NCBI GenBank assembly: GCA_023138975.1
Contig: JAGLON010000004.1
Location: forward strand, 1-64,000
Direction: 5' to 3'
Source: Candidatus Zixiibacteriota bacterium
Lineage (GTDB): Bacteria > Zixibacteria > MSB-5A5 > GN15 > JAAZOE01
Length of the DNA stretch: 64,000 bases
Position 1 is the stretch's first letter. The number at the start of each line of letters is the position of its first letter. The position numbers and the translations under genes were made by a program. This document shows, piece by piece, positions 38,909-39,865 of the stretch. The notes under the pieces were generated by a model. That model was not told the origin of the DNA and searched no databases. It saw only the letters and a list, made by a program, of their open reading frames with translations.

Positions 38909-39865
38909 TCAGTTATTTTCCTCTTCTTGGGGAGGATTCTCTATTTTATCGATCTGCCCAGTCACCCATTCCACTTCGGAAGATTCGGGGAACTTGGTAA
39001 GAAAATCCTTATAATACTTTATCGCTTCATCTTTGTTTCCGGCCAAATCATTGCAGTATGCCACATAAATAACCGCTTCAGATATCAAGTCCGATTCGGG
39101 ATGTATTTTTTGAAACTCTTTAAATGCGGCTATCGACTCCTCAAACTTATCCGCCCGTCGCAAGGCATACGCCTTGGCAAATAAAGCATCATCAAAAAGA
39201 TCTGATTCAGGATATGTTTTCCTGAAAGTATCGAAGACTTCCATTGCAGAGGTAATCTGTTTGGCTCGTATTTTCATCTGCCCCATATTATACAGGGCGC
39301 TATCGGAATACCCCTTCTTATTGCTCGGATCGTTTTGCAGGATTTTCCTATAATAGCTTTCGGCCTTGGTAAACATTTTCCGGCCGGTATACTTATCTGC
39401 GATTTTGGCATAGAGCGGCATAGTTATGGCTGTATCTGCCTGACGGAGGAAATCAGCCAGAGTATTTCGATCGGCCAGATAATCATTGATTATCTCAATA
39501 AACTCTTCCGGAGGCGCATAACCATAAACCCGGTCTATTTCGGTGCCGTCGGCATTCGTCAGAATCACGGTGGGATATCCGGCGATCCCATACTTTTGCG
39601 CTAATAGCGTGTCGGCTTTGCCGTCAACTTTTACATTGATCATTTTACTCACAAGCTCTATCACTTCTTCGTTTCGATACGTCACGGTATCGAGGACTGT
39701 GCACCACGGTCACGTGGGTGACTTAAACGTTATTAGAATTTTCTTATTGCTGTCGCCCGCCTTTTTAAGCGCATTGTCGTACGTATCCTCAAACGAGATT
39801 TTTCCGGCTGTCACAATTCCAGCCAATAGGAATACGGCAATAACAGTAATCAGTGTTCTCTTCAT
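38909..39865 (-). CDS. Predicted exported selenoprotein: thioredoxin-fold (UxxC) plus TPR domain, with in-frame TGA
   Basis: Read through one TGA (39710-39712), the frame from ATG 39865 gives 318 residues. There is a signal peptide (about 1-20), a thioredoxin-like domain and TPR-type repeats (about 140-300). The TGA is codon 52, in SPT-U-PWC-TVLD, with Cys55 at the second position. It aligns with the first Cys of CxxC in thioredoxin relatives of the form WCGWCKxxDxxTFxDxEVI; downstream the same spacing reads LDTVTYRNEEVI. YPTVIL, the cis-Pro motif, follows. A perfect hairpin stands 16 bases after the TGA. GAGAGG precedes the ATG and overlaps the upstream stop. The downstream part alone (GTG 39685) would lack a signal peptide and active site. 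A nonsense mutation or read error is the alternative. Confidence 0.78.
39674..39693 (-). promoter_or_regulatory. Candidate bacterial SECIS element
   Basis: On the minus strand, TCGATAC-CGTGAC-GTATCGA forms a perfect 7-bp stem with a six-base loop. It begins 16 bases after the TGA at 39710-39712, and the loop's G at its second position is 25 bases downstream. Bacterial SECIS hairpins have a short stem, a small apical loop with G in the first two positions and a spacing of roughly 16-37 bases (established knowledge). A competing hairpin with the TGA in its loop (39704-39717) also exists. Confidence 0.7.

Follow-up and report, generated by a model that had tools for sequence, protein, structure and literature searches.

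The window, i.e., the whole stretch of 64,000 nucleotides of Candidatus Zixiibacteriota DNA analysed here, carries on its minus strand a putative selenoprotein gene (38909..39865) that starts with an ATG at 39865, ends with a stop codon at 38911-38909 and comprises 318 codons including one TGA, codon 52. The frame is open on both sides of this single TGA (39710..39712), and the translation reads MKRTLITVIAVFLLAGIVTAG...FKSPT[UGA]PWCTVLDTVTYR..., in which residue 52 is the U of a UPWC motif. The predicted product combines a signal peptide, a thioredoxin domain with a UxxC motif and TPR repeats. The surrounding gene order is accC, gcvH, gcvPA, a small ORF, the thioredoxin-TPR gene, gcvPB and an ABC transporter, and the order from accC to the ABC transporter recurs, with small exceptions, in the majority of the eleven relatives that were compared, across all four families of the order (here f1 to f4, f1 being the family of the window's genome). 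Between 35859 and 43359 of the window, the thioredoxin-TPR gene and the small ORF interrupt the gcv operon between gcvPA and gcvPB. No other convincing Sec-type UGA was found in the window, and an Rfam scan of the window returned nothing but a tRNA.

When the TGA was translated as a residue, a Pfam search assigned the thioredoxin domain (residues 26-128; 39482..39790) to PF13098 (Thioredoxin_2; E 3e-13, 50.4 bits), and the helices following it (residues 149-309; 38939..39421) were assigned to the TPR family PF13174 (E 9e-18); for the thioredoxin-TPR protein no NCBIfam model reached its cut-off. Both domains are also seen in the AlphaFold model (38 sequences), which has a pLDDT of 94, and an N-terminal signal peptide is likely, as judged by eye from the translation. 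In the model, Sec52 is situated just ahead of helix 53-62, which is the thioredoxin fold's first helix and follows a strand, and the TGA therefore occupies the place of the first Cys of a CxxC motif; membership of PF13098, taken together with the model, describes a Thioredoxin_2 domain with its redox pair where helix 1 begins. The standard ORF call starts only at GTG 39685 (codon 61), downstream of the TGA, and leaves out the signal peptide as well as the first strand and the redox site; the selenoprotein would therefore be misannotated throughout the order.

Immediately beyond the TGA, the minus-strand mRNA contains a hairpin (39674..39693) whose 7-nt arms UCGAUAC and GUAUCGA form an inverted repeat (39674-39680 / 39687-39693) with 100% complementarity and 6 nt between them, the apical loop CGUGAC (39681..39686). 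A spacer of 16 nt (39694..39709) separates the UGA from the stem, and the loop spans +24 to +29 after the UGA, with a G at +25 and a U at +26; stem, loop, spacing and the G at +25 are all present as described in the original prediction. The 24-nt hairpin alone folds at -8.0 kcal/mol (z -3.4), and the 42 nt from the UGA fold at -11.8 kcal/mol. The further claim that a perfect stem embedded in coding sequence is not expected by chance was overstated for one sequence, where the chance is 1-4%, whereas the conservation across genomes does exceed chance. When the sequence was recoded synonymously according to the codon usage of the window, 4.4% of the recoded sequences had a stem of 7 bp or longer in the allowed positions and 1.2% scored equally well, and across 13,927 codon positions in 33 genes of the window the corresponding values were 8.1% and 2.1%. 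Since equally good candidates occur at 1.2% and 2.1%, respectively, the hairpin in one sequence is weak evidence when taken alone.

The published limits for a bacterial SECIS (bSECIS) are a loop of 3-9 nt, a stem of 4-16 bp, a G within loop positions 1-2, a distance of 16-37 nt from the UGA to the apical loop and a minimum free energy of -7.5 kcal/mol or lower (PMC13188914). With a loop of 6 nt, a stem of 7 bp, a G as the second base of CGUGAC followed by U, a distance of 23 nt between UGA and loop, and a folding energy of -8.0 kcal/mol, the hairpin lies within all of these limits. Like bSECIS elements of the E. coli fdhF type and of the consensus model, it is a stem-loop directly 3' of an in-gene UGA, and its small apical loop, 23 nt from the UGA, has GU close to the beginning, but the 6-nt loop CGUGAC of f1 is without the model's usual extra N1-N2 pair (PMC13188914).

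Among orthologues gathered across 80 genomes of this order, the active site was read in 69; G026, G039, G041, G058 and G068 were left out because the search pattern missed the motif. The active-site codon is TGA in 38 of the 69 homologues (six out of seven in f1, three out of three in f2 and 29 out of 47 in f4), and the remaining 31, among them all 12 f3 homologues, have TGC or TGT; the UGA is thus aligned with the redox-site Cys of the homologues, and the frame is conserved across it. Within f1, whose proteins are 45-56% identical to that of the window, the DNA segment CTCGATACCGTGACGTATCG is identical in seven out of seven genomes. Apart from Met and Trp, 78 residues do not vary within f1; the codon is identical in all seven genomes for six of the seven residues in the hairpin versus one of the 71 others (p = 1.9e-7). 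In f4, the hairpin at the corresponding place mostly reads GGACAC-GGTC-GTGTTC or CGACAC-GGTC-GTGTTG, and all 196 out of 196 pair cells are intact in the 28 distinct UGA genes of this family; in slid registers pairing falls to 28-49%. Columns 18 and 33 pair as G-C in 21 of these genes and as C-G in seven, an exchange that corresponds to at least four changes on the tree, and one genome exchanges another pair from C-G to U-A, so that two pairs are changed on both sides. Compensatory changes in homologues, which had been proposed as a check on the hairpin, were therefore found in f4, and the structure is kept in UGA homologues, being nearly invariant in f1. The distance from UGA to loop is 23 nt in every f1 and f4 UGA gene in which the fixed-position hairpin was read, and G(+25)U(+26) is common to both families despite loops of 6 nt in f1 and 4 nt in f4. 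The 4-nt loop of f4, GGUC, is the loop of fdhF as well.

The three UGA genes of f2 have no stem at the exact fixed position, and each carries another 7-bp stem nearly there (GATGGAC/GTTCATC, GCAAATG/CATTTGC). Homologues that keep the TGA and lose the stem had been named as evidence against a SECIS; these three genes are in part such a case, but in view of their alternative stems they do not overturn the reading. In the f2 genomes G007 and G010 (L035, L068), the stem GAUGGAC/GUUCAUC encloses ACUAUAAC or ACAAUAAC, both of them loops that lack an early G. Overall, two of the f2 loops have no G at the start and one is 10 nt long, which places them outside the standard bSECIS model. A tentative and rather doubtful reading is that one orthologous Sec site is served by several loop types within the order, namely GGUC in f4, CGUGAC in f1 and ACUAUAAC in two f2 genomes, in which case SelB recognition might be looser than the bSECIS rule, or SelB and loop might have co-evolved between families.

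A second stem, CCACG/CGUGG, whose loop contains the UGA (39704..39717, minus strand), had been described as a possible competitor of the hairpin, perhaps acting as an on/off fold. The stem itself, CCACG-UGAC-CGUGG (39717-39704), is present, yet all five of its five pairs form in the window's genome only, with zero to four out of five in the other 37 UGA genes, and it is probably incidental. It shares no bases with the downstream hairpin, and a 55-nt fold holds both together. This lack of conservation, together with the compatibility of the two structures, leaves the proposed on/off switch unsupported.

Comparing Sec and Cys homologues, a stem with 5 or more base pairs was found at the fixed position in 35 out of 38 UGA genes versus eight out of 31 Cys genes (Fisher p = 1e-8, with rows that are related to each other), and among phylogenetically independent pairs for UGA versus hairpin two to three agree and none disagrees, numbers too few for significance. 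The protein tree requires 12 Sec/Cys changes, nine of which fall on well-supported branches. Cys homologues with the same hairpin had been anticipated as a sign of pure coding constraint, but the eight that keep at least 5 bp are found mostly near Sec genes and do not speak against a SECIS. In four genera (g6, g27, g39 and g43), the hairpin is kept both by a Cys gene and by a UGA relative from that genus. G047, the sixth hairpin-keeping Cys gene, is placed on the tree next to G053, which has Sec, and the Cys sister of G053, whereas for G056 and G065 no close Sec neighbour is resolved on the tree. Cys homologues can keep a remnant SECIS, the drawn examples being FdhA and a HesB-like protein (PMC1794560). 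By their sequences, the hairpin-keeping Cys genes found here, such as G006 in f1 and G050 in f4, fit such remnants after a Sec-to-Cys change, with the difference that they recur within one thioredoxin family. In the f4 genus g22 (L064, L077, L084 and L091), the Cys homologues keep most of the SECIS sequence with one pair broken (C-A), apparently as a decaying remnant. Taken together, the comparison across genomes settles a reading for which the single hairpin was weak evidence: conservation, covariation and association with UGA strongly support the assignment of a SECIS to this UGA, and the hairpin is almost certainly, as far as sequence comparison can tell, a bSECIS within the coding sequence of a selenoprotein gene.

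The machinery for selenocysteine insertion is present in the order, with SelA over cut-off in 56 out of 60 relatives searched, tRNA-Sec over cut-off in 15 out of 21 genomes, a SelD copy with one in-frame TGA in 26 out of 26 genomes having a SelD match, and, in G001, a SelB (identified from sequence) directly after SelA. The window's own assembly is a metagenome-assembled genome of 108 contigs with 93.6% completeness, in whose SelD the Sec position is encoded by an in-frame TGA; SelA, SelB and tRNA-Sec were not found in it in searches run without a positive control. A SelB match at a contig edge of this genome proved to be EF-Tu, and its tRNA-Sec matches were tRNA-Leu, -Ser and -Tyr. MurB and an SprA-like protein, which directly precede SelA in G001, have no match in the window's assembly, and the gene after SelB in G001 has only a 32%-identical match there. 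Because these neighbours of SelA are also without a match, the simplest reading is that the absence of SelA, SelB and tRNA-Sec, as seen in searches lacking a positive control, probably reflects a missing block of the assembly. At L110 (6949-10232), selA and selB lie next to each other after an SprA-like gene of 2021 aa, and tRNA-Sec lies approximately 11-12 kb from selA on one contig in seven relatives, but not in G001 or G008. Elsewhere in the window's genome, the in-frame TGA of SelD (L126, C19:227318-228238; SCAGUASK) is followed by a GC-rich hairpin, and a second thioredoxin-like UxxC gene (L151, C25:32212-32772) has an in-frame TGA (DDUEYC) and the hairpin CCGCU-CGUGA-AGCGG. Both SelD and this second UxxC gene have their own bSECIS-like hairpins in most genomes read, the loop of the latter being CGUGA in f1, f3 and f4.

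Other explanations for the UGA and the hairpin have to be weighed against this background. The stem could be a by-product of coding constraint, with codons for LDTVTYR that happen to be self-complementary and an RNA fold that is idle, and both the conservation of the LDTV residues and the eight out of 31 Cys homologues keeping at least 5 bp would agree with this. However, identical codons are confined to the hairpin (six out of seven versus one out of 71), the compensatory pairs of f4 combine an amino acid change (F/L) on one side with a usually synonymous site on the other, and for most of the Cys genes with a kept hairpin there is a UGA relative within the genus or next to the gene on the tree. 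Moreover, the Cys-only family f3 has no stem, and its members G023, G033 and G035 encode exactly LDTVTY without it, so that the hairpin is not forced by coding constraint; we consider this explanation very improbable.

The lack of selA, selB and selC in the window's assembly might suggest that the UGA is a nonsense mutation or a sequencing error in a broken gene, next to which the hairpin would be incidental, but this is exceedingly hard to believe for a UGA that 38 homologues share at one and the same codon, most of these homologues being 28-56% identical to the query, with an intact frame downstream and with a further in-frame UGA at the Sec position of SelD in the same assembly. The same lack could be taken to favour another kind of readthrough, e.g., a near-cognate tRNA inserting Trp or Cys while the hairpin serves as a general readthrough enhancer instead of a SelB site, and hairpins near a UGA in insect SPS1 can indeed promote non-Sec readthrough (PMC4561486). 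This proposal has very little probability in our view, given that the residue alternates with Cys and occupies the redox position of UxxC, that the hairpin has bSECIS geometry, and that SelA, SelB, tRNA-Sec and a Sec-encoded SelD occur in the order.

With the hairpin read as a bSECIS, and by analogy to E. coli, SelB together with Sec-tRNA(Sec) and GTP would bind the apical loop just 3' of UGA codon 52, and selenocysteine would be delivered at this codon instead of the ribosome terminating. The product would presumably be an exported thioredoxin-like protein with the redox motif Sec-Pro-Trp-Cys, in which the TPR domain following the thioredoxin domain probably binds partners or substrates. Among the closest solved thioredoxin domains by sequence is cDsbD, the C-terminal domain of DsbD, and the top Foldseek match is E. 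coli YbbN (CnoX), a thioredoxin with TPR repeats, although with 14% identity and a TM of 0.28-0.31 this match is weak, and the domains are arranged differently. To our knowledge, neither cDsbD nor YbbN contains Sec.

Thioredoxin-like UxxC proteins are among the listed kinds of selenoproteins (PMC13188914), and the protein described here is like the thiol:disulfide interchange and thioredoxin selenoproteins with UxxC (PF13098, PF00085) in its Thioredoxin_2 domain and in having Sec at the N-terminal Cys of CxxC, but is distinguished by the fused C-terminal TPR array, the predicted export and the location inside a gcv operon. In the titles and abstracts of the literature library searched, we found neither a TPR-fused thioredoxin selenoprotein nor a thioredoxin-like selenoprotein in a gcv context. 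The hairpin is very probably a new and well-documented case of an established mechanism, UxxC thioredoxin-like selenoproteins as such being already known. Beyond this, the family represents a natural series, comprising Sec with the loop GGUC, Sec with the loop CGUGAC, recent Cys with a remnant hairpin and older Cys without a hairpin, which lets the loss of Sec and the decay of the RNA signal be followed over at least nine changes on supported branches.
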